Assembly (NCBI RefSeq): GCF_963676065.1
Contig: NZ_OY780933.1
Location: 3,862,501-3,926,500, forward strand
Length of the DNA stretch: 64,000 nucleotides
Direction: 5' to 3'
From: Maridesulfovibrio sp.
GTDB lineage: Bacteria; Desulfobacterota; Desulfovibrionia; Desulfovibrionales; Desulfovibrionaceae
Shown here: one piece after another, positions 10,074 to 40,800 of the stretch
Layout: each line of letters opens with the position of its first letter
Numbering within the stretch: position 1 is the first letter of the stretch
The notes under the pieces: generated by a model
Told to the model about the DNA's origin: nothing
Databases searched by the model: none
The model's input: the letters and a program-made list of their open reading frames with translations, nothing else
Made by a program: the position numbers and the translations under genes

Positions 10074-10769
10074 ATGATGCCCAGACATATCGCCGTTATT
10101 ATGGACGGTAATGGACGATGGGCCAAATCAAGGGGACTCAAACGAAGCGAAGGCCACAAGGCCGGAACTGAAGCAGCGAAAAATATCGTCACCAGATGCC
10201 GTGAACTCGGTATTGAACACCTGACTCTTTATACCTTTTCCAAAGAGAACTGGGCCAGGCCGAAAGATGAAATCGCAACGCTTTTTGAGCTTCTGCAAAT
10301 CTTCCTAAAAAAAGAATTGTCCAGCCTGCGTGAGCAGGATATACGCCTGAAAATACTTGGGGAACTCTCAGAGTTCCCCTTTGGCGTGAGACAAGTCGTG
10401 GCCCATACCATAAAAAAAACGGAAAACTGCAAATCCATGACCCTTAATCTGGCCCTGAATTATTCCGGGCGGGATGAGCTTGTCAGGGCATGCAGGAAAA
10501 TGATTTCCGAAGGAATCAGCAAAGATAAAATTACCGAGAATTCACTGTCCGACTATTTGTACACGGCCGGACAGCCAGATCCGGACCTGATTATCCGCAC
10601 CAGCGGAGAGCAGCGACTTTCCAACTACCTGCTCTATCAGGCCGCTTACTCGGAACTATACTTCACCGATGTCTATTGGCCGGACTTTACTCCCGAAGAA
10701 CTGGACAAGGCCCTGGACGACTTTGCCGGACGACAGCGCCGCTTTGGAAAGACCGGTGAACAAATTTAA
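10074..10769 (+). CDS. uppS: Isoprenyl transferase (undecaprenyl diphosphate synthase)
   Basis: Condenses farnesyl diphosphate with isopentenyl diphosphate units to make the C55 carrier lipid for peptidoglycan and other cell-surface polymers. The signature HIAVIMDGNGRWAKSRG starts at residue 5, with catalytic Asp11. SEGHKAG, TLYTFSKENW and the C-terminal RTSGEQRLSNYLLYQ and ELYFTDVYWPDF motifs are intact. The start at ATG 10074 (231 residues; a second ATG follows at once) is preferred over an upstream in-frame ATG at 10005 that lies inside frr. A terminator follows, so cdsA, often the next gene in other genomes, is not in this transcript. Confidence 0.96.
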   Translation: MMPRHIAVIMDGNGRWAKSRGLKRSEGHKAGTEAAKNIVTRCRELGIEHLTLYTFSKENWARPKDEIATLFELLQIFLKKELSSLREQDIRLKILGELSEFPFGVRQVVAHTIKKTENCKSMTLNLALNYSGRDELVRACRKMISEGISKDKITENSLSDYLYTAGQPDPDLIIRTSGEQRLSNYLLYQAAYSELYFTDVYWPDFTPEELDKALDDFAGRQRRFGKTGEQI

Positions 10770-10792
10770 ATTTGCTTAACCGTAATGTATAA

Positions 10793-10830
10793 AATCCCAT
10801 GGAGATTATCTCCATGGGATTTTCTTTTTT
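10793..10830 (+). terminator. Intrinsic terminator of pyrH-frr-uppS
   Basis: Perfect stem AATCCCATGGAGA/TCTCCATGGGATT with a TTA loop, followed by a T-rich tract. Confidence 0.92.
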
Positions 10831-10887
10831 GGAGCCGTTAATTAGGACATTCATCCGCATATTACTCTCAATTCAATATATTTTTTA

Positions 10888-10917
10888 TCGACAAAATCAA
10901 GTAAACTACTTTATTCT
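10888..10917 (+). promoter_or_regulatory. Possible sigma-70 promoter for the exported-protein cluster
   Basis: TCGACA, 18 bases, then TATTCT in very AT-rich DNA about 95 bases before the first gene. A 12-bp palindrome, TTCTAATTAGAA (10914-10925), overlaps the -10. The match is modest. Confidence 0.3.
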
Positions 10918-11012
10918 AATTAGAAAATATGCCATAAATCTAACTTTCAAATCTTTTAAATGTTTCAAATCAGATCAAGCGGCTCTTATACATGAATACA
11001 GGGAGGTGTTTC

Positions 11013-12746
11013 ATGTCATCTAAATTGGTACCATACCTAGTGGTGTCCTTTGCTCTATGCCTGATGGCAACCGGGTGCATTCCACAGACTAACAGACAGC
11101 AGAACAACGTAGTCCAAACTGCCGTACGCACAGAAACGGTTGTCATCGATCCTATTGTGACAGGCAAAACATTAATGAAAAGTAATGTCCGCCAGGTTTC
11201 ATCATCAAAGGCGGATATAGTCGATATTCTGACCAAAGACACGCAGGTTGAACTTATCGGTAAAAACGGTAACTGGTATAAAGTTAAGCGTCTGGACGGC
11301 AAAGGTCATCCCGGATTCGTATATCACCGACTGATCAATCTCGATTTCGCCAACTACCTCGGTGCAAGAGGACGCAACAAAGAAAAGACTGTTGTCTATC
11401 AGGCTCCTACTAAAAAATCCCCAACTGTTCTGATTCTCCAGCCGCAAACAGCTTTTGACATCATGGGGGTTGAAGATAATTTTTACCGGATTAAAGGGGA
11501 AGGATTCGAAGGGTTCGCTTTGACCAAAGCTTGCGTTGCAGATCCGATGACCCCCATCGCGAAGACCGAAACCCGAACAATCAGCGCTCCCTGCCCTACA
11601 GATGCAGGAAAACAGACCGCTTCCGCAACACACTCAAGTCAAAAAAGCAAAACTCAAATCAACACAAATGTCCGGACCCGAAAAAAAACCACAACCCAAA
11701 AAAGCAGTGGGCAAAGTGCAGCAGCTTCATTTTTCGGAGCTTTCGCAAACGCCCTGCTCACAGGGGGAGGCGGAGCACAGAATGGCGGTGTTGCAGCTCA
11801 ATCTTCAAACGACCAGCTTAAAAATATCCTCAAAAGCGTAAGTGCCGGTAAAGAACTAGCCGCGAAAACAGTTGAAATCCGGGAACAAATGCTGCAAGCC
11901 CTGAATGAAACACGGGCGTTGCAATCACTTGTAGGCGCGACTGTTGCCGCGATGAATGACAACTACAAAATCGCTGCCGAGACTGCTCGCGGGGTTAGCT
12001 CCACCGGGATGAAGAAGATTTCCATCAAGGCATTTATCAAAGACCTGTCCTATGAACCCACAGACACGATTGAAAGTGCATCGGTCAAGATTGCAGAAAA
12101 TGGTAAAATGCTTAAAGCTCTGGAAACCAATATCAAGTCCAGAGCGGCAGATTTCTCTGAGCTAAACAACCAGCAGGTACAGAATCTGGACTCAATTATC
12201 GGTTCGTTCGCTAATAACCTGCATGCTTCAAACGCGCTTTACGACTTCAGTATCGATAAGGCTAATAATGTTATTCTGCGCATCGACCGGGCGATCAACG
12301 CTTACGATGAAAAGGCCGGCCCCATGGCCGCAGAAGCAGCAAAGCAGGCCGGCGTCATAGCACTGGCCACAACCGAACTGGTATCAATCATTAGCAATGC
12401 TCAAAACAATCCAATCCGGGCTCTGACCGCGATCCCGCGCATGATAGAAATTCAGGAAGAACTGACAAATCTGACAACCCTCTTTGCCGACTTTCAAGCG
12501 GATTATGACTACATAGAAGAAAATTCAGCCATTATTACCGGGCAGGGCAAAGATATCAGCAAAATAATCATGACCGCGCGCAGAAAAAATACTCAGGTAA
12601 CCACACTGCTGGAGTCCTATTACCAGAAGAAATTGGCTCTGAGTAGCAGACTTAAGAAAAAGATGGCCACCCAGACTGCGGCAGGATTTAAAACCGTAGA
12701 AAAAAAAGCTGCCTCTGTTGCTTTAGCGGAAGACATGTTAGACTAG
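11013..12746 (+). CDS. Large SH3-domain lipoprotein of unknown function
   Basis: Not recognised as a named protein. The start at ATG 11013 follows a strong GGAGG site; the frame also opens at 10992. A lipoprotein signal peptide ends at ATG-Cys (Cys22 in this numbering). Two bacterial SH3-like repeats follow (about residues 55-110 and 120-170), the first with WYKVKRLDGKGHPGFVY and the second with FYRIKGEGFEGFALT. A low-complexity Lys/Thr/Ser/Gln linker (185-235) and a Gly/Ala-rich patch come next. Residues 260-577 are almost all helical, with long coiled-coil character. It heads a four-gene set of exported proteins. SH3 domains of this type often bind cell wall, so envelope anchoring is a reasonable inference, but the function is unknown. 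Confidence 0.8.
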   Translation: MSSKLVPYLVVSFALCLMATGCIPQTNRQQNNVVQTAVRTETVVIDPIVTGKTLMKSNVRQVSSSKADIVDILTKDTQVELIGKNGNWYKVKRLDGKGHPGFVYHRLINLDFANYLGARGRNKEKTVVYQAPTKKSPTVLILQPQTAFDIMGVEDNFYRIKGEGFEGFALTKACVADPMTPIAKTETRTISAPCPTDAGKQTASATHSSQKSKTQINTNVRTRKKTTTQKSSGQSAAASFFGAFANALLTGGGGAQNGGVAAQSSNDQLKNILKSVSAGKELAAKTVEIREQMLQALNETRALQSLVGATVAAMNDNYKIAAETARGVSSTGMKKISIKAFIKDLSYEPTDTIESASVKIAENGKMLKALETNIKSRAADFSELNNQQVQNLDSIIGSFANNLHASNALYDFSIDKANNVILRIDRAINAYDEKAGPMAAEAAKQAGVIALATTELVSIISNAQNNPIRALTAIPRMIEIQEELTNLTTLFADFQADYDYIEENSAIITGQGKDISKIIMTARRKNTQVTTLLESYYQKKLALSSRLKKKMATQTAAGFKTVEKKAASVALAEDMLD

Positions 12747-12768
12747 AATACGATAAGGAGATTAATTT

Positions 12769-12981
12769 ATGCGAAAACTCAAAATATTAGCTATTTGTGT
12801 GTTTACATTGATGATGCTTGCCGGCTGCGGATTCAAAAATGCAAATACCGCCAAGCAGTCCATGACCGGAGTTCATCAGTCTGCCCAAGAATTGCAAGAT
12901 GAGACTCAATCTTCTAAAGAACGAACTGAAGAGATCAAACAGGAAGAAAGTCAGGATACAACCGAAGGCTACAAGTGGTAA
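12769..12981 (+). CDS. Small lipoprotein
   Basis: A 70-residue predicted lipoprotein. MRKLKILAICVFTLMMLAGC is a clear lipoprotein signal with the LAGC lipobox and Cys20 as the modified residue. The mature part is about 50 residues, polar and rich in Gln, Glu, Lys and Ser, and probably helical. An AAGGAG ribosome site precedes it. It lies 22 bases after the SH3 lipoprotein and 6 before the next gene, clearly within one operon. Its shape recalls entericidin-like or coiled-coil spacer lipoproteins, but no family is claimed. Confidence 0.75.
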   Translation: MRKLKILAICVFTLMMLAGCGFKNANTAKQSMTGVHQSAQELQDETQSSKERTEEIKQEESQDTTEGYKW

Positions 12982-12987
12982 AATGAT

Positions 12988-14103
12988 ATGGCCCGCAAAT
13001 TCAGTTTAGTTATTATTATAATCTCTGCGCTTCTGCTCTGTTCTTGGGCAGAAGCGGCAGAGCTTTATATTATTTCTCCAGCAATAGGCAAGGTGAGAAA
13101 TAAAGAAAAGGACAGGCATAAGACTGAATTGGAGGCCATACTAAAAGACAAGGAATTCAAAAAAGCCCTACGGAAAGGCGTGATGGGGTTCTTGAAGCGC
13201 GCTGCCGCCAAAAGCGAAGGCGTAAAAATAAAAAGAGCCGGATTCAGCGATAAATTCGACCCTGAATCCATCCTTGTACCGCTCCTTTTTGTTGATAATG
13301 TTATATCCTTTGTGGATGAATTCGGATCTCCAGCAGAAAGACTGTATAAAGGCCGGGTATATATCGGTCTGAACTTTCTGTTATTTCAGGCAAAATCTGA
13401 GTCGCTGGTTTATTCGGCGCCTATGCTGGTTTCGGTTCCTTACCTGAATAAAACAAAAAACTTCAGCCTTACCCCACTCTCCGGACAGATAAGAGCTTCC
13501 ATCGTGGAATTTTTCACCGACCACAAAAGACTTAAAGCCGATGCGCGTGATGAATTAAGTAAATGCCTAGAGAATATGGACTACATGTTTTCAACAGATA
13601 CTTGCGCCATCACCAGCATCACTCTCTCTAAAGGGACACTTAAGCGCATCCAGAATCCGGCCAAATATAAATCTCTCGCGCAGATGCTGGCCTCACAGGC
13701 ACTGTCTCAGGAAATGATGGTCCTGCCTCCTAAATCAAGATTCAACGCATTTCGTAGAGGTTTACACGCTTCGGTAGCCATGTTCGGTGTGTCCTTTCAG
13801 CAGGGCTCCGAAAAATCAGGATTCTCGGAAAGGGACAACGTATACCAGACAAGCATGCGCATGCCGAAACCCGCAACCGAATTCAGCCTTATAGTCAAGA
13901 CCGGCACCAAAGATAACGATTTGGGGCCGTTTATCGAACGTAACTACACCACCGCAGCCTTTCTGCAAGGAAATGGTGAAACCATAAAATGTATCAAAGC
14001 CGTGGACGCGACCATCGCCAAGGATCACACATCCGTATCCGATGTAAACTTCTACAACAGCCTGATAAACACCCTTTCCGACCTTGATTCCTGCAAACGC
14101 TAA
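12988..14103 (+). CDS. Exported protein of unknown function
   Basis: A 371-residue protein with a signal peptide (hydrophobic residues about 6-20, likely cleavage after Ala-Glu-Ala near residue 23). The mature N-terminus is Lys/Glu-rich and helical (30-75). The rest mixes strands and helices, with no motif I recognise. Four Cys (in KCLENMDYMFSTDTC, ETIKC and DSCKR) could form disulphides in the periplasm. It sits 6 bases after the small lipoprotein, and its 3' end abuts the next exported protein. It is probably periplasmic or outer-membrane associated, and no enzyme function is suggested. Confidence 0.75.
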   Translation: MARKFSLVIIIISALLLCSWAEAAELYIISPAIGKVRNKEKDRHKTELEAILKDKEFKKALRKGVMGFLKRAAAKSEGVKIKRAGFSDKFDPESILVPLLFVDNVISFVDEFGSPAERLYKGRVYIGLNFLLFQAKSESLVYSAPMLVSVPYLNKTKNFSLTPLSGQIRASIVEFFTDHKRLKADARDELSKCLENMDYMFSTDTCAITSITLSKGTLKRIQNPAKYKSLAQMLASQALSQEMMVLPPKSRFNAFRRGLHASVAMFGVSFQQGSEKSGFSERDNVYQTSMRMPKPATEFSLIVKTGTKDNDLGPFIERNYTTAAFLQGNGETIKCIKAVDATIAKDHTSVSDVNFYNSLINTLSDLDSCKR

Positions 14104-14128
14104 CCGGGCGACAGCCAAGGAGTTTTAC

Positions 14129-14755
14129 ATGAAAAAGACAGCATTACTTTCACTTATCGTCGCCGTCATACTGGTGATGTCCTTTGCAGCCACCGGAATA
14201 TGCGGAAGTAAAAACGGTTATAAAATTTATAAAAAATCAGGTAAACCCACCATTGTTTTTTCGCTGGTGCCGCGCATCAAAGGTGAAAATCTCTCACCGC
14301 AGGAATGCGAAAACCTGATCCGCAACCTGAATAAATCATTACAGCAGGAATTCAATGAAGCCGGCTTTGAAACCCATCGTGACCGCATAATTACCGGATT
14401 CCTGCTCGATTCCTGCAAGCGCTCCTATGCTACGTCGCAGCAGACTGTTACGGAAGATGAAATTATCAGCATCGCCCGGGACGATTACATTGATTATGTA
14501 GTCATCGGTGCATCTGAAGTGGATATCATATACGATGAAGATTACGAACAGTATTCGGCACTTGTGGACATTAATGGAGATTTTCTTGGCGTTAAATCCG
14601 ACCCGCCTACCTCTTACGCCCTGAACCTGACCGGTGAATACATGCACCCAAATAAGGATCGTCTGATTAAACTGGCGGTTATTGACATCGCGCGTAAAAT
14701 CGCAAGGCTTAGAACAATTGATACGGTGCTGACCCACTGGAAGGAAAATAATTAG
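14129..14755 (+). CDS. Exported protein of unknown function
   Basis: A 208-residue protein. The start at ATG 14129 follows an AAGGAG site; an upstream in-frame ATG at 14084 would overlap the previous gene and hide the signal peptide. The signal peptide spans about residues 1-26. The mature part alternates strands and helices. A Ser/Thr-rich turn at about 110-118 precedes the segment YVVIGASEVDIIYDEDYEQY, which resembles the regular strands of CsgG/FlgT-like or TolB-N-like periplasmic folds; that likeness is only impression. Last of the four-gene exported set. Its terminator may be shared with the convergent HD-GYP gene. Confidence 0.73.
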   Translation: MKKTALLSLIVAVILVMSFAATGICGSKNGYKIYKKSGKPTIVFSLVPRIKGENLSPQECENLIRNLNKSLQQEFNEAGFETHRDRIITGFLLDSCKRSYATSQQTVTEDEIISIARDDYIDYVVIGASEVDIIYDEDYEQYSALVDINGDFLGVKSDPPTSYALNLTGEYMHPNKDRLIKLAVIDIARKIARLRTIDTVLTHWKENN

Positions 14756-14811
14756 TAGAAGTCTGGCTCAGATAAACGTTGCTGAATATTGCAAAGCAGC
14801 ATGAACAAAAA

Positions 14812-14843
14812 AACAGGGATGCCGCTGAAACAGCATCCCTGTT
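14812..14843 (-). terminator. Terminator between exported cluster and HD-GYP gene
   Basis: Perfect 11-bp stem AACAGGGATGC/GCATCCCTGTT with a 10-base loop. On the minus strand it runs into seven Ts, so it mainly serves the HD-GYP gene; the + side has a weaker T tract. Confidence 0.85.
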
Positions 14844-14869
14844 ATCTCTTAATTCTTATTCAGTCTTTT

Positions 14870-16600
14870 CTAATCTTCCTCAAATTGTGTTGGGGCAAGC
14901 TCGGCTTTGGCATAATCCATATACAGTCCAGAATCGATAAACAGCTTGCAGACGTCCCCATCAATATGATTATCCTTGACCATGAAGCCCAGAATTTTAA
15001 TAGCCTGTGAAAGTTTCATCGGTTTTTTGTACGGGCGATCCTTAGCGGTTAAAGCCTCAAAAATATCAGCAACAGCCATGATGCGAGCCTGTAGAGGCAG
15101 CTTATCCTTACCTATACCATATGGATAACCGGAGCCGTCTAACTTTTCATGATGCCCGGCGGCGTATTCCGGAACTCGGGAAAGGCGTTTAGGAAACGGC
15201 AGACGCAGGAGCATTTCATGAGTTATCCGCGCATGGCTTTCAATGACCTTGCGTTCTTTCTCCGTGAGGGTTCCTTTGCGGATAACAAGGTTGTTGACTT
15301 CATCTTCGGTCAACCAATTGAACGTTTCGCCGTTACTTTCATAGGTTCTAGCTGCAATCCCATCAATCCGCGCTATTCGCTCATCCGACATAAATTCCTT
15401 GGGGATATTGCAGGCAGCGACAAACCTACGGTCATCCTCCACCTGCTCAAGTTCAACCGCATAACGCATTTCAATTTCCACCAGTTCGGAAGAAGAAGCT
15501 CCGCGGGAAAGGGCCGCAACAGTTTCTTCCAGCTGCCTATTCTTGATAATCTCCGCAATTAGCCGAAACCGCGCATTCACCATTTCGGCACGATCAAAAA
15601 TGGTTTCCAGCTTTGTGGATTTATCGACCACATGTTCGGGAATGGAAATTTTGCCCACATCATGCATCCATGCGGCTAGCTTCAATTCCTCCATCTCATC
15701 TTCGGTAAAGGAAACATCACCGAATTTTTCATCCTGAAGAGAATTGATCTTATCGGCAATCATCATTGTCAAGGTCACTACCCGTTCAATATGACCGTTG
15801 GTGTAAGGGGATTTGGCGTCAATAGCGGCTGCAATACTCTGGATAACGGAATAGAGCAGATCTTTAAGACCCTGCAGGAGCTGAGCATTGGTCAAGGCAA
15901 TCGCGGCCTGTGAAGCCAGAGAGCCGACAATATCCACCACATCAGGAGAGAATTCAATTATCTCCCCGTCCTCATCAAGCGCATTCAAAAGCTGCAATAC
16001 ACCGATGATATCCTGCTCATGATTTTTCAGAGCCAGCACGAGCATGGATTTGGAACGGTATCCGGTAGCCGCATCATATTTGCGCGGCCCGGTAAAATCA
16101 AACCCTTCAGCTTCGTAAACATCTGCGATATTGATCGTTTCCCCTGTCAAAGCGCAGTATGAAGAGACATTGGAACGGTTGGGGGTGTTGCCGGAAGTAT
16201 AAAGAGGGACAGGAGGAAGGGTTATTTCATTACCACTGGTTCCGCCCATCCTTACCTGCATTGTGTCATTCTGGAGGATGGAAAATTCAAGCTTGCGACT
16301 TTCGCGGTCAACAATATACAGAGTTCCGGCATCAGCTTGGGTCAGAACCCTTGCCTCATCGACGATCATTTCCAATAAACGTTCAAGCCGAGTTTCCCCG
16401 GAAAGAGCCAGACCGATTTCTGTAAGCCTATCTACCAATTCATCTTTGGCCTTAAGGTCACGATTATGTGCTTGCATCATATCATGACACAACTGCCCTA
16501 CTACTTCCTCATACTCGGTTCCCTTTGAACTGGCGAAAGCTTTTTCAGCAACTTTCTTAAATTCCCGTGCTCCTGAATCTGATAGGCCTTTCCGCGACAC
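14870..16600 (-). CDS. GAF and HD-GYP domain protein, likely c-di-GMP phosphodiesterase
   Basis: Likely cytosolic sensor and c-di-GMP phosphodiesterase. A GAF domain covers about residues 60-240 (ADAGTLYIVD near 90; SMLVLAL and IIGVLQLLNA near 185-206). The HD-GYP catalytic domain begins near 250: His313-Asp314 of MHDVGKI, then His483-His484-Glu485 and GYP at 491-493. All core metal and signature residues are present. Between the HD pair (with IPEHVVDKSTKLE) and the next conserved helix lies an extra, mostly helical insertion of about 110 residues (335-445) that standard HD-GYP domains lack. The gene is monocistronic, convergent with the exported-protein cluster and divergent from cdsA. Confidence 0.9.
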   Translation of the reverse strand: MSRKGLSDSGAREFKKVAEKAFASSKGTEYEEVVGQLCHDMMQAHNRDLKAKDELVDRLTEIGLALSGETRLERLLEMIVDEARVLTQADAGTLYIVDRESRKLEFSILQNDTMQVRMGGTSGNEITLPPVPLYTSGNTPNRSNVSSYCALTGETINIADVYEAEGFDFTGPRKYDAATGYRSKSMLVLALKNHEQDIIGVLQLLNALDEDGEIIEFSPDVVDIVGSLASQAAIALTNAQLLQGLKDLLYSVIQSIAAAIDAKSPYTNGHIERVVTLTMMIADKINSLQDEKFGDVSFTEDEMEELKLAAWMHDVGKISIPEHVVDKSTKLETIFDRAEMVNARFRLIAEIIKNRQLEETVAALSRGASSSELVEIEMRYAVELEQVEDDRRFVAACNIPKEFMSDERIARIDGIAARTYESNGETFNWLTEDEVNNLVIRKGTLTEKERKVIESHARITHEMLLRLPFPKRLSRVPEYAAGHHEKLDGSGYPYGIGKDKLPLQARIMAVADIFEALTAKDRPYKKPMKLSQAIKILGFMVKDNHIDGDVCKLFIDSGLYMDYAKAELAPTQFEED

Positions 16601-16858
16601 TGTCTCCTCCGAAACAAGAAATAAATCCCGTGATTAAAATTTTGCTCAATACTACTTAAAGAATAGATACAACTCTTACACAAAGTTCGCAAACTTAATA
16701 TTATTTATACTAATAGAAAATTCCATCCAAAACCCAATTTACATGCTTACACCTGTAACACAAAGCCGATAGATCAAAAACATTCCCAAACCGAGGCCAT
16801 AAAAATAACATTTCTGTTTAAGCTGTGATTTGCTGCAACAGAAATAATATTGAAAAAT

Positions 16859-16872
16859 AGCTGTCAACAGCT
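16859..16872. promoter_or_regulatory. Palindrome at the -35 of the cdsA promoter
   Basis: AGCTGTCAACAGCT has perfect 6-bp arms, and its last base is the first base of the putative -35 hexamer. This is a typical operator position. The regulator is unknown. Confidence 0.45.
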
Positions 16873-16900
16873 TGCCCACCACCTATTAATGAATTATAAA
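16872..16900 (+). promoter_or_regulatory. Putative sigma-70 promoter for cdsA-dxr-rseP-tsaB
   Basis: TTGCCC, 17 bases, TATAAA. This is a good match with ideal spacing in the only long gap upstream of cdsA. Confidence 0.55.
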
Positions 16901-17066
16901 AATGGAGTTTTTTGCGCGATTAAGTAGTATCTACGATTTATCGGCATTATTTTTTACTCCTTGCGGGACATGATATTTCCACTTAAGAAAAGAGGATTTG
17001 TCTCTCTTGAGAAGTATACATATATTTTAAAATACATTTTTTGTGGAAATTTCAACCGAGGACTTC

Positions 17067-17870
17067 ATGCCCTTAACCAGCCTTCAAAAAAGAATTATCA
17101 CCGCACTGCTATTGGTAGCAGCCCTGACCGCCGCCCTAATCATGGGCGGACTTGTTTTGACAGGAGGGCTGGCAATTTTCTGCACAATCGCCCTCCACGA
17201 ATTTTACGCCATGTTCTGGCAGGACAATTCCCACCTTGTTTCACGAATTGTGGGTATGGCCGCCGGCGCAGGAGTCATCCTGACCTCCTCCGCTGTTTCG
17301 CCGGTCTGGATGCTCCTGATTCTGCTGGGAGCCTTCTGGCTATTCAACTTCCGCTTTTTATTCTCCTTCAGCGCCAAACCGGATCAGGCAACATATGTTG
17401 ACAGCCTGATTCTTTTTTCCGGGCTGGTATACATACCGGTTACCATGCAGTTTATGACCTCCATGAGCAGCTGGGAAATACTTTTTGTACTTCTTGCAGC
17501 ATCCTCCTCGGACACAATCGCTTTTTATGCCGGAACATTTTTAGGCAAAAAAAAGATCTGGCCCCGGATAAGCCCAAAAAAATCATGGGCCGGTTCAATC
17601 GGAGGATTTCTGGGTTGCATCGTCTGCTGCTCTTTGTACGGATACTATTTCGGGCACGCCCCCATCCTTTACTGGGCAGCACTTGCGGCCGTACTTAATA
17701 TCGGTTCCCAAATGGGCGACTTCTTCGAATCTGCCCTCAAGAGAAAACTTAACATCAAAGACTCCGGTAAGATATTGCCCGGACACGGCGGTGTTCTGGA
17801 CCGCATCGACAGTCTTGTGCTTGCCTTGCCAGTATACATTCTGGCAAGACAGATTCACGCATTCTTTTAA
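17067..17870 (+). CDS. cdsA: Phosphatidate cytidylyltransferase
   Basis: Inner-membrane enzyme that makes CDP-diacylglycerol from phosphatidic acid and CTP, the branch point of phospholipid synthesis. Seven to eight hydrophobic segments are visible, and the C-terminal family signature is intact: SQMGDFFESALKRKLNIKDS, then GKILPGHGGVLDRIDSL. The ATG at 17067 (267 residues) with a GAGGA site is preferred; the frame is also open from a GTG at 17043. It is first gene of the run to tsaB. In many proteobacteria it directly follows uppS; here about 6 kb intervenes. Confidence 0.94.
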   Translation: MPLTSLQKRIITALLLVAALTAALIMGGLVLTGGLAIFCTIALHEFYAMFWQDNSHLVSRIVGMAAGAGVILTSSAVSPVWMLLILLGAFWLFNFRFLFSFSAKPDQATYVDSLILFSGLVYIPVTMQFMTSMSSWEILFVLLAASSSDTIAFYAGTFLGKKKIWPRISPKKSWAGSIGGFLGCIVCCSLYGYYFGHAPILYWAALAAVLNIGSQMGDFFESALKRKLNIKDSGKILPGHGGVLDRIDSLVLALPVYILARQIHAFF

Positions 17871-21203: not shown

Positions 21204-22085
21204 ATGTCTTTAGTAATTAACCACAACTTGATGGCTATGAATGCCAACCGCAACTTGTCAGAATCGTATGGCAACCTCAGTGTATCAACCCGTCGCCTGT
21301 CTTCAGGTCTTCGTGTTGGCACCGCTGCTGACGATGCTGCAGGTCTCGCAATTCGCGAACTTATGCGCTCTGACATCAAGTCACTCAATCAGGGTATCCG
21401 TAACGCCAACGATGCAATTTCAATGATCCAGACCGCTGACGGCGCTCTCGGTGTTATTGATGAAAAGCTCATTCGTATGAAGGAGCTTGCAACTCAGGCC
21501 GCAACCGGTACCTACAACTCTGACCAGCGTCTGATCATCGACTCCGAATATCAGGCTATGGCTTCAGAAATCACACGTATTGCTAACGCAACTGACTTTA
21601 ACGGCATTCACCTGCTCAATGGTAACCTGTCCGGTCAGAGCTCAACTCACGACGGTTCCGGTCTCACGTCAACTGGTCCAGTGAAGGTTCACTTTGGTAC
21701 CGCGAACGACTGCGCAGAAGACTACTACTACGTTTCCATTGACACTTCCACTGCCTCCGCACTCGGTGTAGGTATGGGAGCCTCGAACTCCATTTCAACT
21801 CAGGAGTTGGCACAGAAGTCCCTGGATAAGCTGAACAATGCTATTATCTCCAAGGATAAGATTCGTGCTAACCTTGGTGCTCTCCAGAACAGACTGGAAA
21901 ACACCATTACCAACCTGTCCATCCAGGCTGAAAACGTACAGGCTGCGGAATCCCGTATTTCTGACGTTGACGTCGCGACTGAAATGACTGAGTTCACCCG
22001 TAACCAGATCCTGACCCAGTCCGCAGTGGCTATGCTCTCGCAGGCCAACAGCATGCCCAGAATGGCAATGCAGCTCATCGGTTAA
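21204..22085 (+). CDS. fliC: Flagellin
   Basis: Main filament subunit, exported by the flagellar type III apparatus. The conserved D0/D1 ends are complete: N-terminal MSLVINHNLMAMNANRNL, LSSGLRVGTAADDAAGLAI and QTADGAL; C-terminal AESRISDVDVATEMTEFTRN and the final ANSMPRMAMQLIG. At 293 residues it is short. The central variable region (about 140-205) is reduced and Ser/Thr-rich, offering possible O-glycosylation sites. A strong AAGGAGG site and a FliA promoter precede it, and a terminator separates it from fliD. Glycosyltransferase genes lie 2.7 kb downstream. Confidence 0.97.
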   Translation: MSLVINHNLMAMNANRNLSESYGNLSVSTRRLSSGLRVGTAADDAAGLAIRELMRSDIKSLNQGIRNANDAISMIQTADGALGVIDEKLIRMKELATQAATGTYNSDQRLIIDSEYQAMASEITRIANATDFNGIHLLNGNLSGQSSTHDGSGLTSTGPVKVHFGTANDCAEDYYYVSIDTSTASALGVGMGASNSISTQELAQKSLDKLNNAIISKDKIRANLGALQNRLENTITNLSIQAENVQAAESRISDVDVATEMTEFTRNQILTQSAVAMLSQANSMPRMAMQLIG

Positions 22086-22133
22086 TTTAACTGAAGCGGC
22101 ATAAAGCATTCTGACCAAGTCAGATCAACTACA

Positions 22134-22162
22134 AAGCCGGGTCCGGTTAATCCGGCCCGGCT
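22134..22162 (+). terminator. Hairpin after flagellin gene
   Basis: GC-rich 12-bp stem (AAGCCGGG and CCGG against CCGG and CCCGGCTT, with one bulged T) and a TTAAT loop. The following DNA is only weakly T-rich, so it may also stabilise the mRNA. Confidence 0.75.
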
Positions 22163-22224
22163 TCAAGTTTATGTAAACGAATTTGAAATACAGCAATCAG
22201 CGGAACTAAGCCTACTCCCACATC

Positions 22225-22240
22225 TGGCATCTAGATTGCA
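22225..22240 (+). promoter_or_regulatory. Sigma-54 (RpoN) promoter for fliD-fliS
   Basis: TGGCATCTAGATTGCA has the -24 GG and -12 GC with exactly 10 bases between them, matching TGGCAC-N5-TTGCA closely. It lies about 50 bases before fliD, as expected for mid-class flagellar genes driven by an FlrC/FleR-type activator. Confidence 0.8.
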
Positions 22241-22289
22241 TAAAAAGGAGTAAAAGTAGAATCAGGGAAAAATGTTCCCGGAGTAAATT

Positions 22290-24032
22290 ATGTCTGATTA
22301 CACCTCAGGAAATATCAACTTTACCGGACTCGGTTCCGGGACCGACTTCCAGACACTTATCGATGGACTCATTGATCTTGAACGCGTTCATATCAAGAGA
22401 CTCGAAAGCTGGAAAAGTACGTGGGATGGTAAAGTTGAAAAATTTCAGGAACTGAATACCGCACTTCTCGGTCTGCAGACTACTCTGAAGTCCATGGATA
22501 CTCTTGATGAATTCATGACCAAGGCCGTTTCAACCACCAGCTCTGATACAGTAACAGCAACAGCCTCCAGTGATGCTCAAATAACCAGTCACTCCATAGA
22601 AGTTAAGCAGTTAGCTAAGAATGATATTCTCGTGGGAGCCGGCGGTGTATCCGACCCCAGCGATGTTTACTTTTCAGCTGCCGGTTCTTTTACTTTTACT
22701 TACGCGGGCGAGACCATCACTTTAAGCAATATCCCGGCAGGAACCACCCTGCAGGGTTTTGTGACTATGATTAACAACCATGCTGACACTCGCGATAAAA
22801 TCAGAGCAACCACTCTTAATGACGGCTACTATAACCGCTTACAAATATACGGACTGGACCTTGGGGCGGACAACAAGATTATAATACAGAGTAATGGGAC
22901 TCCTGGGTCAATTTTTTCAGGCAGCACTTATTACGCTTCACAAGATGCCCAGAATGCATGGCTGAAAGTAGATGGATTTCCATATGTTCCAGATGCGTGG
23001 ATGGAGCGTGACACAAATACAATCGACGACCTTATTCCCGGTGTAACTTTAAACCTTAAAAAAACAACTCCCACCGATTCTCCCGTCAATATTGGTATAA
23101 CGACTGATAAAGAAGGGATGGCCGAGAACGTTAAAAATTTTGTCGATCAGACCAATGAGATACGGCAAATGATTAAAGACCTGACCTCTGTAACGACGAC
23201 TTCTGATTCTGCCTCAGGTGCTGTCCTGACTGGTAACTACGGTGTCGAACTTTTAGTCGGCCAAAGATTGAAGAATATCGTTGCCAGCAAGGCTATCGGT
23301 TTTTCATGGTTTTATGAAGATAGTGCTACCGGACACACCTCCGGTGACAGGTACTCCTCTCTCTCTCAGCTTGGTATAAAAACCAATGCAGATAGCGGAG
23401 GAGCCAAGATGGGGCTTCTTGAACTTGATACTGAAGAGCTGACAAAGGCTCTGGACGACGATCCCATGGCTGTCGCCAAACTGTTTGCCGCTAACTATCT
23501 GGGAGAATCTGAATCTGCGAATCTGACGTATTTATCGCATATTAAAGGAATAACTGAGGCTGGGGAATATAATGTCCAGTACGAAGTTTCGGGTGGACAA
23601 CTAATTTCGGCATCTATTAACGGGCAGGAAGCATTCGTAGACCCTGCAACATGGCAGATTACCGGAAAGAGCGGCACAGCTGCCTCAGGTCTGGCGTTAC
23701 GTGTTGAGAATAGGGCTGACGGAGTATACGGTAACTCCGACGAAAACGCTGCTGATGCAATGACGGCTACCCTGAAGCTTGGTAAGATTGGGGAAACGGT
23801 TAATGCTCTCGGCGATATAACCAGCGAACAAGGCCCTCTCGAGATTCTTCAGGATAACTACAAAACCATCATGGATAATATCGATAAAAAAATCGAATAT
23901 GAAGAAGATCGAATCGCAACCAAGAAGCAGATGCTGACCGAAAAATACGCCCGACTTGATGCGCTGTTAGGAAACTACTCAGGTATCCAGTCCCAGCTGG
24001 CATCCAGCATTAACGGGCTGATGTCTAAATAA
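22290..24032 (+). CDS. fliD: Flagellar filament cap protein FliD
   Basis: Pentameric or hexameric cap that folds flagellin at the growing filament tip. The N-terminal domain is typical (NFTGLGSGTDFQTLIDGLID, then VKQLAKNDIL). The C-terminal domain has LGIKTNADSGGAKMGLLELD, then QLASSINGLMSK at the end after a coiled-coil. Its 580 residues lie within the family range. A CCGGAG site precedes the start. Its own sigma-54 promoter sets it apart from the sigma-28 flagellin gene. fliS follows after 84 bases. Confidence 0.95.
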   Translation: MSDYTSGNINFTGLGSGTDFQTLIDGLIDLERVHIKRLESWKSTWDGKVEKFQELNTALLGLQTTLKSMDTLDEFMTKAVSTTSSDTVTATASSDAQITSHSIEVKQLAKNDILVGAGGVSDPSDVYFSAAGSFTFTYAGETITLSNIPAGTTLQGFVTMINNHADTRDKIRATTLNDGYYNRLQIYGLDLGADNKIIIQSNGTPGSIFSGSTYYASQDAQNAWLKVDGFPYVPDAWMERDTNTIDDLIPGVTLNLKKTTPTDSPVNIGITTDKEGMAENVKNFVDQTNEIRQMIKDLTSVTTTSDSASGAVLTGNYGVELLVGQRLKNIVASKAIGFSWFYEDSATGHTSGDRYSSLSQLGIKTNADSGGAKMGLLELDTEELTKALDDDPMAVAKLFAANYLGESESANLTYLSHIKGITEAGEYNVQYEVSGGQLISASINGQEAFVDPATWQITGKSGTAASGLALRVENRADGVYGNSDENAADAMTATLKLGKIGETVNALGDITSEQGPLEILQDNYKTIMDNIDKKIEYEEDRIATKKQMLTEKYARLDALLGNYSGIQSQLASSINGLMSK

Positions 24033-24116
24033 TATAAGCTAAAAAAATAAAAATTTAAAAATCCTCTAAGGTTTTTCAAAAAGATAACCGATTAATAAAT
24101 CAGGAGGAGCAAATAT

Positions 24117-24659
24117 ATGCAAAAAGCAGCTCAAGCTTATCTTTCAACTCAGATCCATACCACTTCCAAGGGAGAACTTCTCCTAATGCTTTATGATGCC
24201 GCAATCAACTTTATGAAGCAGGCGAAAGTGAAGATCGACGAAAAGGATTATGCCGCCAAGGGAATTCTTATCTCCAAAGCTATTGAAGTCATCTCAGAAC
24301 TGGCTTCCAGCCTGAATAAGGAAAAAGGCGGAGAGCTTGCCGAAAATCTCAGCAAACTCTATATCTTTTGTAACACAAGACTCCTGCAGGCCAACTTGAA
24401 GATGGATACCGAAAAGCTTGATGAAGTAATCAAGATTATCGACGGAATTGCTTCTGCCTACCGGGAAATCATCCCCACAGAAGAAGCACAAGCAGCAGTA
24501 CCTCTTCAAACAGCAGCAACTGCGAACAGCGGAACCACCAATGTAAACCGCAGTTTTGCAAACGATGCAGGCTACACAATGCCAACGCCCCAAAACATGC
24601 CCGCTCCCAATGCCTTGCGCCTGAAAAAAGCCGCAAACGCATATGGAGGAGGAGCATAG
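24117..24659 (+). CDS. fliS: Flagellin export chaperone FliS
   Basis: Cytosolic chaperone that binds the flagellin C-terminus and prevents early polymerisation. Residues 1-125 form the four-helix FliS domain with the family start AAQAYLSTQIHTTSKGELLLMLYDAAINF. The last 55 residues are a Pro/Ala/Asn-rich, probably disordered tail not found in most FliS proteins (usual length 125-135; here 180). An AGGAGG site precedes it. It is probably cotranscribed with fliD and is followed by a very strong terminator. Confidence 0.93.
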   Translation: MQKAAQAYLSTQIHTTSKGELLLMLYDAAINFMKQAKVKIDEKDYAAKGILISKAIEVISELASSLNKEKGGELAENLSKLYIFCNTRLLQANLKMDTEKLDEVIKIIDGIASAYREIIPTEEAQAAVPLQTAATANSGTTNVNRSFANDAGYTMPTPQNMPAPNALRLKKAANAYGGGA

Positions 24660-37074: not shown

Positions 37075-37737
37075 TTATTCTGATTTTGAATTTCTCTTAC
37101 TGATTACTTCGCCCAAATCCTTTTCCAACTCAGCAAAAATACTTGTAAGCCCCTCATTGAAGGCCCTGACAAGAACGTCCGCCCCATTTGATTTAATCGG
37201 AATTTCACGATCAAAATTGCGGGAATAAATTATGGGCAGATCGGCATTGCTGTTATCCAACAGAATAAACTGCATATTTAATACGGCCTTATGCTCCGAA
37301 GCTGAATAGTCACCATAAATTGAGTTGACCACCCCTTCCAGCAACAGATCTCCTGTTCCCATACTGTCCGGGCCCAGCACGTTGGCAAAAAGACCGGACT
37401 CACCAATCCAGACCCGCAAGTCTTGAGTAACCATCGATGCAGGGGGAACGAAAAAAGAATTATAGTAGTCGGCCTCAAAACCGTTCTCACCTATCTTGTA
37501 GACCAGATCACTATCCTCGTATCGAGGCGATATTTTTACTCTCCGCACAATAAGATTCTGAGTCGAATGAATGGAATTCTTATCCTTTTGTTCCCTTTTC
37601 GCATCAAGGGTAAAATATTTGCGGTCGAGACTCGGACGTTCCAGCTTAACACAGCCACTCAGCCCGCATGCTGTGAAAACAGCCGCGACGATAAGAATCC
37701 TGCAAATCGCCCACATAGTATTTGTACTTTTTTTCAT
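37075..37737 (-). CDS. Mla-operon auxiliary lipoprotein (PqiC/DUF330-like)
   Basis: Predicted outer- or inner-membrane lipoprotein of an MCE (Mla/Pqi-type) lipid transporter. I chose ATG 37737 (221 residues), which gives a signal peptide ending with GLSGC; the open frame reaches 37824 but would overlap mlaD. The mature part matches the ABC-type transport auxiliary lipoprotein family: PSLDRKYFTLDAKRE near the start, the strand-rich NLIVRRVKISP, and YYNSFFVPPASMVTQDLRVW. It is last in the operon mlaE-mlaF-mlaD-lipoprotein, 4 bases after mlaD. It has no strong terminator before the convergent diguanylate cyclase. Confidence 0.78.
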   Translation of the reverse strand: MKKSTNTMWAICRILIVAAVFTACGLSGCVKLERPSLDRKYFTLDAKREQKDKNSIHSTQNLIVRRVKISPRYEDSDLVYKIGENGFEADYYNSFFVPPASMVTQDLRVWIGESGLFANVLGPDSMGTGDLLLEGVVNSIYGDYSASEHKAVLNMQFILLDNSNADLPIIYSRNFDREIPIKSNGADVLVRAFNEGLTSIFAELEKDLGEVISKRNSKSE

Positions 37738-37741
37738 TGTA

Positions 37742-38890
37742 CTATTTCCCGCTTCTTCCTTTTTTCGGGGGATCTCCGAAGAGGACCCCGGCCGGATACT
37801 GCTTGGCTTCGTTACTGAGTTCACGCAGATTTTCCATCAACCTGCGAATATTATCCAGAATGGATTCAATATTCCCCTGCTGACCGGCCACAGTCATATT
37901 CACCCTTGAAAGTGTTGACTCAAATCTTGTGGCGGCACTTTTTATCCTGTCTGAAGCTTCGCTGATATTATTGAGAGTTTTAGAAAGATCGGCAAGGGTC
38001 TGTTTGCCCTGGGGACCGGATAAATATTTTTCCATGCCTCCGGTAACGTTCTTCGCACTCGCGGATGCCATCCGAATATCTTTCATGGCAGCCACAATGT
38101 CACCGGAAGATTTTTCCATAATCATACGCATGTTTCTAGCCGCAACTGCAACATCAGGCATAAGAGTGTCCACTGTAGGATCCGAAAGAAGCTGATTAAT
38201 CCGGGTCATAAACTTTTCAGTCTCACTCAAAGTCCCGGTCAGATGTTTGCTTATTTCGCCGGTATCGGCATTTTTGAGGAAGGTACTCAAATCCTGAGCG
38301 ACTTGGCGGACATCCTCGATGGCTTCCGAAATATTGGCTTTATTGATATCTTCCAGTGTATCGCTGATAGAAGCCACAGCGCTTTCAACCTTACTAAGCG
38401 TAGACGGGGCCGAGGGTACATACAAGTACTTGGGCTTCCAAGTAATTTCCAGCGGAGGATTTTTACTCGGGTCCACATAGTCAATTTCAAGAAACAGCTG
38501 TCCGGTCAACCCCAGCGAGACAGGCCGTGCCCTAAGCCCACGCTGAACTTCTTTTTTTAAAGAATGGACCAGATCCTTGCCTTCCTTGCTTGCAAACATG
38601 GAATGATTCAGATCGCCGAGAATATAGACATAACGCAACGCGCTCTGATCGATATCCACATACTGGTCAGTAACAAATTCAATACTGGCAACGGAACCGA
38701 TCTTTACACCACGGAATTTGATGGGCGACCCCACTTCAAGGCCGTTAACGGATTCATTGAGATAGGTTTCCATCTTTACACTATGTTCAAAAATCTTTCC
38801 CGCACCCAGAATAGCCAGCACTGCGACAAAAAGCAGAATGCCGATAATTATAAAAAGCCCCAGTTTGAAGGGATTAGTTTTCCGACTCAT
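37742..38890 (-). CDS. mlaD: MCE-domain protein of an Mla-type lipid transporter
   Basis: Substrate-binding inner-membrane protein of an Mla/Mce phospholipid transport system. One N-terminal transmembrane helix (about 10-32) precedes the MCE domain (38-115: VNGLEVGSPIKFRGVKIGSV). A long helical, coiled-coil-like region (150-360) follows, longer than in E. coli MlaD (183 residues total; here 382), as in many non-enteric homologues. It overlaps the ATPase gene by 4 bases. The direction of lipid movement cannot be told from sequence. Confidence 0.88.
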   Translation of the reverse strand: MSRKTNPFKLGLFIIIGILLFVAVLAILGAGKIFEHSVKMETYLNESVNGLEVGSPIKFRGVKIGSVASIEFVTDQYVDIDQSALRYVYILGDLNHSMFASKEGKDLVHSLKKEVQRGLRARPVSLGLTGQLFLEIDYVDPSKNPPLEITWKPKYLYVPSAPSTLSKVESAVASISDTLEDINKANISEAIEDVRQVAQDLSTFLKNADTGEISKHLTGTLSETEKFMTRINQLLSDPTVDTLMPDVAVAARNMRMIMEKSSGDIVAAMKDIRMASASAKNVTGGMEKYLSGPQGKQTLADLSKTLNNISEASDRIKSAATRFESTLSRVNMTVAGQQGNIESILDNIRRLMENLRELSNEAKQYPAGVLFGDPPKKGRSGK

Positions 38891-39684
38891 ATATTCTCCG
38901 TAGCCTGCGGTTGTTCCCCGGCTTTTACTTCAACTTCGCGATGAAAAAATCTGCGAACCTGCGGATGCTCCGATTCATCGCGTAAGATTCTCGGGTCACC
39001 TTGAGCAATAATTCCGCGAGTATTTTTGTCCAGCATGATCACCCGGTCCGCAACAGAAAAAATAGATTGAAGCTCATGGGTTACAATCACAAATGTTACC
39101 CCCAGAGAGCGGGAGAGGCTGCGGATAAGCTCGTCCAGTTCTGCTGAAGTTACAGGATCAAGCCCGGCTGACGGCTCATCAAGAAAAAGTATTTTAGGGT
39201 CCAGAGCCATGGCCCGGGCAATTGCTCCGCGCTTCAGCATACCGCCTGAAAGTTCTGAGGGCATCTTATCTGCGGATGTCTCCAGCCCGACAAGCGAAAG
39301 CTTCATCCGCGCAACATAATCCATGGCTTCACGGGGCATGGAAGTGAACTCTTCCAATGGCAACCGTACATTCTCCAGCAGAGTCATGGAACCGAACAAC
39401 GCCCCCATTTGATACATAACCCCGATGCGCTGCAAAATTTCAAGACGTTTATCGCCATACGCTGAACCGATATCGTCGCCATCAATCAGGATCTGCCCAT
39501 TAGCAGGCGGGTAAAGTCCGATCATATGCTTGAGCACGGTGCTTTTGCCGCAGCCGGAACCGCCTAGAATAATAAAAATCTCACCCTTTCTGACGTCAAA
39601 GGAAATTTTATCGATGATGACAGCTTCACCGTACGAACAGGTCAGCTCACGAACGTTAATTATATTATTGGCGGTTTGATTCAA
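38887..39684 (-). CDS. mlaF: ABC transporter ATP-binding protein of Mla-type system
   Basis: ATPase subunit powering the MlaE permease. Walker A GGSGCGKST is at residues 41-49, the signature ELSGGMLKR is near 143, Walker B ILFLDEPSAGLD follows and the switch His is in VIVTHEL. At 265 residues it fits the MlaF length class. Its start is 1 base after the mlaE stop and its end overlaps mlaD by 4, so all four genes are tightly coupled. Confidence 0.94.
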   Translation of the reverse strand: MNQTANNIINVRELTCSYGEAVIIDKISFDVRKGEIFIILGGSGCGKSTVLKHMIGLYPPANGQILIDGDDIGSAYGDKRLEILQRIGVMYQMGALFGSMTLLENVRLPLEEFTSMPREAMDYVARMKLSLVGLETSADKMPSELSGGMLKRGAIARAMALDPKILFLDEPSAGLDPVTSAELDELIRSLSRSLGVTFVIVTHELQSIFSVADRVIMLDKNTRGIIAQGDPRILRDESEHPQVRRFFHREVEVKAGEQPQATENI

Positions 39685-40800
39685 TTATATACCCGCCAGA
39701 AAAAATATTACCGCAAAAATACCATCAAAAACAGCTATCAATATAATGCCGCTGACCACGGCGCTTGTGGTGGAATCACCAACCGCACTTGCCCCGGATT
39801 TGGTAACCAATCCTCGCTGGCAGCCTATTCCGGCGACAAGAAAACTGAATACCACAGCCTTGACCATTCCACCGGAAAAATCCATCCATTGCACGTTTGC
39901 AAACACACGTCCGCTAAAAGTACTTAAAGGGTACCCCATGGAAAGCATTACCAATGCGCCACCGACCAGACTCATAAAGTTGAAAAAAAGAGTCAGCAAA
40001 GGGGTCATGCAGACTGTTGCCAGAACCCTCGGTAAGACAAGAAAGCTGATCGGATTAAGCCCCATAGTGTTCAAGGCATCCAGTTCCTCGTTGACCTTCA
40101 TGGTGCCCAGCTCTGCCGCAAAAGCGGAACCGGTACGCCCGGCAAGGAGAATTGCAGTGACCATGGGACCGAGTTCACGGAACATGACAAGTCCCAACAT
40201 GTTGGGCACAAAGATCTCAGCGCCGAAACGCATCAGGGAAACAGCGGACTGAAAGGACATAATCAGTCCCATCAAAAAACCGATCAAAAGGATAATCGGC
40301 AGGCCGTCTACGCCTACTTTCTCACAGGTCAGCCAGAAATCTGGCCAGCGCAACCTGCTTTTACGTGTTGATAAAGCCAAAAAAGAAAGGACACAGTTGC
40401 CGGTAAATTCAATCTGCTCACGCATATCTGCGGCTACAGCCTGACCGGAAATTCCAATAGAGGTTACCCAGTTGCGTAATCCGCCTTTACCTGTTTCATT
40501 TTCCTGAGCAGGCGCCGCCTTTTCAAAATCGAATAGATCCAGAAAAGAAGTGAATTCAGGACGAAGGCCATTGACCGCAAGGGTCCTGCCCCGGTCCCGG
40601 CAGCCGGCTTGCATCATCATAAATAATGAAGCTCCCCCGCCATCCAGATAGTCTATCCCTGCACATTCCACAACAGTCCCCCCGGAGGAAACGGCAGCAC
40701 GGGCAGCATCCCAGATTTCACCTGCCCCTTCGGCATCCAGATGGCCGGAGACGGTCATGGTTGAACCTGATATTTTAAATCTTATTTTACCTGCAGACAT
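39685..40800 (-). CDS. mlaE: Mla-type permease with fused N-terminal STAS domain
   Basis: Inner-membrane permease of the MCE-linked ABC transporter. Residues about 1-95 form a STAS-like domain (TVSGHLDAEGAGEIWDAA, GIDYLDGGGASLFMM). The rest (130-371) is the MlaE domain with RELGPMVTAILLAGRTGSAF, MKVNEELDALNTMGLNPI and about five to six membrane segments. In E. coli the STAS protein MlaB is separate; here it is fused, so no separate MlaB is needed. It is the first gene of the minus-strand operon. Confidence 0.9.
   Translation of the reverse strand: MSAGKIRFKISGSTMTVSGHLDAEGAGEIWDAARAAVSSGGTVVECAGIDYLDGGGASLFMMMQAGCRDRGRTLAVNGLRPEFTSFLDLFDFEKAAPAQENETGKGGLRNWVTSIGISGQAVAADMREQIEFTGNCVLSFLALSTRKSRLRWPDFWLTCEKVGVDGLPIILLIGFLMGLIMSFQSAVSLMRFGAEIFVPNMLGLVMFRELGPMVTAILLAGRTGSAFAAELGTMKVNEELDALNTMGLNPISFLVLPRVLATVCMTPLLTLFFNFMSLVGGALVMLSMGYPLSTFSGRVFANVQWMDFSGGMVKAVVFSFLVAGIGCQRGLVTKSGASAVGDSTTSAVVSGIILIAVFDGIFAVIFFLAGI

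Follow-up and report, generated by a model that had tools for sequence, protein, structure and literature searches.

A conserved four-gene operon for exported proteins downstream of uppS in Maridesulfovibrio, tentatively read as an accessory envelope assembly

The window analyzed here is a 64,000-nucleotide stretch of a Maridesulfovibrio sp. genome (NZ_OY780933.1, positions 3,862,501 to 3,926,500), in which four consecutive genes, here called A to D, follow uppS. A first-pass annotation, made from the sequence alone, described these genes as a cluster for two lipoproteins and two signal-peptide proteins, inserted between uppS and cdsA and encoding an envelope complex of undescribed function. 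The four-gene exported-protein cluster is confirmed, and comparison of related sequences shows A-B-C-D to be one co-inherited, conserved unit with predicted export signals on all four products; the interpretation that had been placed on it is supported in part. The genes, all on the plus strand, are the following (window coordinates).

11013–12746, plus strand: gene A, lipoprotein, 577 amino acids; GGGAGG precedes the ATG
12769–12981, plus strand: gene B, small lipoprotein, 70 amino acids
12988–14103, plus strand: gene C, signal-peptide protein, 371 amino acids
14129–14755, plus strand: gene D, signal-peptide protein, 208 amino acids

The assignment of export types was borne out, since the N-terminal lipobox cysteine is invariant in A and in B (C20) across 15 of 15 orthologues, and both C and D start with hydrophobic N-termini. 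The intergenic gaps measure 22 bases between A and B, 6 between B and C, and 25 between C and D, within the 6 to 25 bases first reported.

We compared 17 genomes of the genus, including the window. Fifteen of them (the carriers, again counting the window) contain nearly full-length orthologues of A, C and D. Every carrier also has B and keeps the order uppS-A-B-C-D, so the linkage of the four genes proposed from one sequence holds in all carriers. Ratios of non-synonymous to synonymous substitution rates (dN/dS) were calculated from six genome pairs and fell between 0.013 and 0.139 in 22 of 24 gene-pair comparisons; in the other two dS was saturated and dN low. Because dS exceeds 1.3 in four of the pairs, the ratios there are rough, and the closer pairs G100/G101 and G007/G074 gave 0.045–0.139. 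These sequence comparisons show A to D to be under strong purifying selection, and the constant order in 15 genomes together with the low dN/dS places the cluster beyond chance. In one carrier, G110 (L058:2965-4452), uppS and A lie about 1.5 kilobases (kb) apart, compared to 0.2–0.4 kb in the other 14.

Among the genomes searched, the block was found only in the genus of the window, as far as sequence similarity can tell. Profile searches of cellular genomes covered the order and recovered the C-terminal tail of A in 15 of 348 genomes and C likewise in 15 of the 348, each time genus members only, and D in 16 of 297, namely the same 15 and one chance match. A single-sequence search of 99 family genomes with C matched four, each of them a genus member, and a scan for D in one-per-species genome contigs, which finds close relatives only, returned two loci that are apparently the already counted G104 and G074. 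Viral contigs held no confirmed relative of the A tail or of D, phages and plasmids no relative of the A tail, and plasmids none of D. A match to D in G147 (E 0.006), covering about 75 residues inside a 503-amino-acid open reading frame that appears MCE-like by eye, was rejected as chance.

Family searches gave no function for any of the four proteins. No named family was matched above its cut-off by B, C, D or the A tail in Pfam (all four proteins), PHROGs (A, C and D, the last two as window proteins) or NCBIfam (D), and the SH3 match in A is the sole Pfam match above cut-off in the four window proteins. PADLOC gave no credible match for any of the four (best E 0.011), and the open-access literature contained no description of an A-B-C-D operon among the matches listed.

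The features that flank the operon are the following.

10791–10823, plus strand: intrinsic terminator closing uppS, 15-pair stem with a T tail
10888–10917, plus strand: candidate sigma-70-type promoter, TCGACA-18-TATTCT, nine of 12 consensus positions
14812–14843, minus strand: hairpin separating the convergent gene D and HD/GAF gene, 14 pairs with a T run
14870–16600, minus strand: flanking gene with GAF and HD domains (Pfam HD_5 1e-39, GAF 1.9e-12, HD), which we take to be HD-GYP-like

Terminators had been expected on both sides of the block. The one at 10791–10823 insulates the operon from the upstream side, whereas the hairpin beyond D scored on the minus strand only, where its T run lies, and thus mainly serves the convergent HD/GAF gene; the scanned stretch holds nine terminator-like sites compared to 5.5 (standard deviation 2.6) in shuffled sequence. 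The TCGACA-18-TATTCT match is a likely sigma-70-type promoter as judged from its sequence, with promoter-like sites there showing no excess (five, shuffle mean 7.3). All of the 15 genomes except G099 keep a C(C/T)TTAT(T/A)NT element 104–161 bases upstream of A, and its sequence fits a sigma-70 minus-10 box. No Rfam RNA family was found in 10600–17200.

That uppS is commonly followed by cdsA holds for the relatives of the genus. Among 91 family genomes outside the genus that have uppS, cdsA lies on the same strand less than 300 bases after it in 58; in the other 33 it follows after 300–3000 bases (eight genomes), is distant or inverted within the same contig (six), or is on another contig or not found (19). 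Seven outgroup loci with a uppS-cdsA gap of 1.2–2.0 kb were compared, and the inverted HD/GAF gene lies in it in five of these, the other two giving no match to that gene, which indicates that the block entered between uppS and the HD/GAF gene. The latter is an older neighbor of uppS and cdsA and stands outside the operon. A to D do separate uppS from cdsA, as the first-pass annotation stated, although it omitted the HD/GAF gene that also lies between them.

Downstream of D, 13 of the 15 carriers have the HD/GAF gene, cdsA and dxr. In G100 and G101 a NicO-family gene follows D, and the HD/GAF-cdsA-dxr group has been relocated away from uppS and A to D; TetR-like regulator and TRAP-transporter-like genes, named by eye, also adjoin D in these two (L063, L064). 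A, C and D are absent together from G093 and G105, with B sought there in the fetched loci only. In both genomes uppS is followed directly by the NicO-family gene that comes after D in G100 and G101 (the Pfam match was made on the G105 copy, to which the others are 74–80% identical), so that A to D and little else are missing. In a tree built from five neighboring housekeeping proteins, G099, a carrier, branches first in the genus (support 92/93), and G093 and G105 together are sisters of G100 and G101 (support 100/99). The presence of the block on this tree needs two changes, a count that cannot by itself separate gain from loss; the preferred reading is that the block was gained once, at the root of the genus, and lost once, in the G093/G105 lineage. 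The proposed insertion between uppS and cdsA thus stands for the genus, but it is neither recent nor strain-level, since G099 places it at the genus ancestor; by the same token, the separation of uppS from cdsA is ancestral at the level of the genus but not at that of the family.

In protein A, two SH3 domains, at about residues 53–107 and 120–173, are followed by a tail of about 310 residues. SH3_3 (PF08239) scored 41.7 bits in the window protein against a curated cut-off of 27, and all 15 orthologues match it at E up to 0.1 (best E 4.1e-19). The second domain is divergent, yet it matches the first half (hhalign probability 95, E 2e-8), and the tandem arrangement read from the sequence therefore stands. 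When the A profile was compared to the PDB, four chains matched, all across the first SH3 domain. It is plausible from the sequence that the SH3 pair binds the cell wall; bacterial SH3 domains bind other things too. The tail is well conserved (mean column identity 78%), and three to four of its 312 residues are prolines. Pfam gives no match above cut-off for it, and it is the least understood part of the four proteins. Its length agrees with the 300 residues first noted, and its helical character is probable on sequence grounds. By hydropathy, no segment after the signal reaches membrane-spanning strength (best 19-residue mean 1.57 among the 15 orthologues). A is like other SH3_3 lipoproteins in carrying tandem SH3-type domains after a lipobox, and unlike them in this conserved tail, which within the order is confined to the 15 genus members. 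Weak A matches in G103, G106 and G108 (E 0.004–0.005) were rejected as chance, the longest frames at those loci being alcohol-dehydrogenase-like by eye (391–400 codons). A match in G093 (E 2e-15, residues 2–202) belongs to a different, 724-amino-acid SH3 lipoprotein in another operon.

Protein B has, besides its lipobox cysteine, an invariant C-terminal tryptophan. The B-C spacing is four to seven bases in 14 of 15 genomes and becomes a 7-base overlap in G099, which makes translational coupling likely. LptM (PF13627) reached 16.2 bits in the window protein against a cut-off of 27.3, over residues 7–23 only, and the sub-threshold Pfam matches of B to 14 families, foremost R_equi_Vir and LptM_cons, were dismissed as signal-peptide or chance similarity.

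C and D are the most conserved of the four proteins. The lipobox is absent from C in 15 of 15 orthologues. Cysteines 193, 335 and 369 of C occur in all 15 and cysteine 206 in 14, and D has invariant C60 and C96; in both proteins these positions fit putative periplasmic disulfides. All 15 D proteins have a further cysteine at residue 22–26, close to where the signal is predicted to be cleaved, but the lipobox pattern fits in only two, and D is probably non-lipidated. None of the 15 C or 15 D proteins had a match above the Pfam curated cut-offs. With matches taken at E up to 0.5, CsgG (PF03783), LptE (PF04390) and LpoB (PF13036) were all missing for C, and CsgG and LpoB for D. The C and D profiles matched no PDB sequence at E up to 10, and D gave four weak sub-threshold families in NCBIfam (best E 0.03).

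The predicted model of C has moderate confidence (mean predicted local distance difference test score, pLDDT, 65.8; predicted template modeling score 0.67) and can be read as two successive β-α-β-β-β-α units. Among the Foldseek matches listed for it, chains of HpaA, CsgG, FlgT, PelC, LptE and DUF330 proteins have probabilities of 0.82–1.00, 11 rows have E values of 1.4e-4 to 7.7e-4, and GNA1162 and LPHT ring chains also appear. The second unit aligned to Cj1090c with Z 9.9 (root-mean-square deviation 2.9 Å over 117 residues), and for LptE, CsgG and PelC the Z values were about 7; the fold matches of C also include PqiC. On this predicted structure, C looks like two domains of the CsgG/LptE/PelC/FlgT type. 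For D, the predicted order of strands and helices and sub-threshold matches to FlgT_M (PF16539; 7 of 15 proteins, best E 0.0061) hint at a CsgG/FlgT-type domain; when members were scanned singly, five of nine matched FlgT_M at 14.7–17.2 bits, below the cut-off of 31.2. The top Foldseek row for D was PelC of PelBC (E 0.025), obtained with a low-confidence model and not relied on.

CsgG, TolB-N and DUF330 share one Pfam clan, and a DUF330 crystal contained an octameric ring, as PMC3173608 describes. C would resemble the wider group, which includes PelC, LptE and FlgT, in having predicted domains of this kind within an exported protein, and several members of the group form rings or serve as partner proteins at the outer membrane. 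C differs from it in that two domains would lie in one non-lipidated chain, with no pore helix, barrel or substrate identified.

We tentatively favor, at somewhat below an even chance, a genus-specific and vertically inherited operon that builds an accessory periplasmic envelope assembly. A would be anchored by its lipid in the outer membrane and grip the cell wall through its SH3 pair, with the long tail spanning the periplasm as a stalk, so that A would serve as an anchor linking outer membrane and wall. C, with its two putative CsgG/LptE/PelC/FlgT-type domains, and D, with perhaps one, would be subunits in the periplasm, docked to A and B, and by analogy with studied proteins of that fold they could form a ring or adaptor close to the outer membrane. 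B might be produced in step with C as its small partner. Since one lineage lost the block in a single step, the whole assembly would be dispensable. It is from sequence that we infer the association of A to D into one complex and the binding of the wall by A.

Several observations weigh against this proposal. The C model has a pLDDT of just 65.8, and its Foldseek matches have TM-scores of 0.16–0.27 by model length and root-mean-square deviations mostly of 5–12 Å. Ribosome hibernation factors, which have the same small fold, reach Z 8.0–8.8 and thereby exceed LptE, CsgG and PelC, so that the fold class of C says little on its function. The two halves of C show no mutual similarity, nor does C to D (hhalign, with shallow profiles, effective sequence number below 2). 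The D model is poor (pLDDT 50.6), with no Foldseek row at E 0.001 or better, and Erf4 (14 of 15 D proteins, best E 0.00076) and SurA_N_3 (six, best 0.00029) match D as well as or better than FlgT_M. These two, Post_transc_reg and other sub-threshold matches of D were dismissed as signal-peptide or chance similarity, and FlgT_M, judged in the same way, is no more than a hint.

It is also conceivable, if rather unlikely, that four exported proteins act separately and share nothing except transcription. Their interaction is inferred rather than directly evidenced, and C and D have no detectable sequence kinship; however, all four occur together in 15 of 15 carriers in constant order and close spacing, and A, C and D are jointly missing from the other two genomes. 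We consider it unlikely that the products regulate a peptidoglycan synthase, with D or C as an LpoB-like protein that activates a penicillin-binding protein from the outer-membrane side and A as a wall-sensing anchor. C and D would share the broad fold group and the proposed outer-membrane or periplasmic location of such activators, the SH3 pair suggests wall contact, and a CsgG-family lipoprotein encoded near cdsA in G093 matches CsgG, LpoB and TolB_N together. A precedent is Vibrio cholerae CsiV, a small periplasmic wall-binding protein that works with an Lpo activator, according to PMC4063736. LpoB is nevertheless unmatched in all 15 C and 15 D proteins at E up to 0.5, C has no lipid anchor and D probably none, and absence from two genomes shows that the block is not needed for wall synthesis. 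Equally doubtful is an outer-membrane export or assembly device, in which C and D would form a PelC- or LptE-like collar or plug of a barrel that moves polysaccharide, lipid or protein outward. The fold matches of C to CsgG, PelC, LptE and PqiC and the top Foldseek row of D count in favor of such a device; the operon, though, holds no barrel, transporter or substrate gene (neighboring open reading frames were read by eye only), and the D model is unreliable. A bolder design has a similarly low probability, namely an undescribed trans-periplasmic machine in which C and D would form concentric rings beneath a barrel in the outer membrane, with the SH3 lipoprotein A clamping them to the wall, for the export or surface assembly of a genus-specific product.

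A flagellar accessory, such as an H-ring-like disk of FlgT type around the motor, is very unlikely. FlgT and the LPHT ring are among the listed Foldseek matches of C, FlgT_M is matched weakly by seven of 15 D proteins, and the block is followed by fliC-fliD-fliS at a distance of 6.4 kb. The FlgT_M scores in five D members are only about half the cut-off, however, and when the 15 upstream regions were scanned with simple patterns, none had a sigma-28-like site and only that of G110 gave a sigma-54-like match. The block-free G093 and G105 retain fliC-fliD-fliS beside tsaB, so an obligate flagellar role is unlikely, and the outgroup G028 also has these filament genes after tsaB, with a gap of about 3.6 kb. 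In the window, flagellin, fliD and fliS (fliS by eye) follow tsaB at 21204–24659, a neighborhood kept in six other genus genomes checked. Least probable is a mobile or defense cassette: the block is lineage-restricted and absent from two close relatives, but its pattern is vertical, with one gain and one loss, the best PADLOC E value is 0.011, and the searches of viral contigs, phages and plasmids described above returned no relatives of the A tail or D.

Other envelope loci were seen in the course of this work. In G093 and G100, the HD/GAF-cdsA group has a gene for a CsgG/LpoB-like lipoprotein in its vicinity (L068:7756-8313, L070:607-1188), and the G093 copy matches CsgG at E 4.8e-10 and LpoB at E 1.2e-6 in Pfam. 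The block-free G093 also has a compact operon (L102:3782-12474) that encodes a 772-amino-acid protein with a weak TPR match, an FtsK/SpoIIIE-type ATPase (PF01580 E 6.3e-20; PADLOC mad8 E 4e-16), two small helical-looking proteins, a signal-peptide protein, the 724-amino-acid SH3_3 lipoprotein, a DUF1425 protein and a 175-amino-acid lipoprotein-like open reading frame; it looks like a separate envelope or defense-like system. In the window, an MCE-type lipid transport locus occupies 37075–40800 on the minus strand, with an MlaD protein, an ABC_trans_aux (PqiC-like) lipoprotein that also has a weak LptE match, and two further genes named by eye.

With components of known kinds, the A-B-C-D operon is an interesting orphan rather than a mechanistic surprise. 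It is a clean case in which an entire envelope operon originated together with a genus and is strongly selected, yet can be discarded in one step, and the block-free relatives G093 and G105 are natural comparison strains. Its function, if found, would show how a lineage adds an outer-membrane and cell-wall module from widespread folds.

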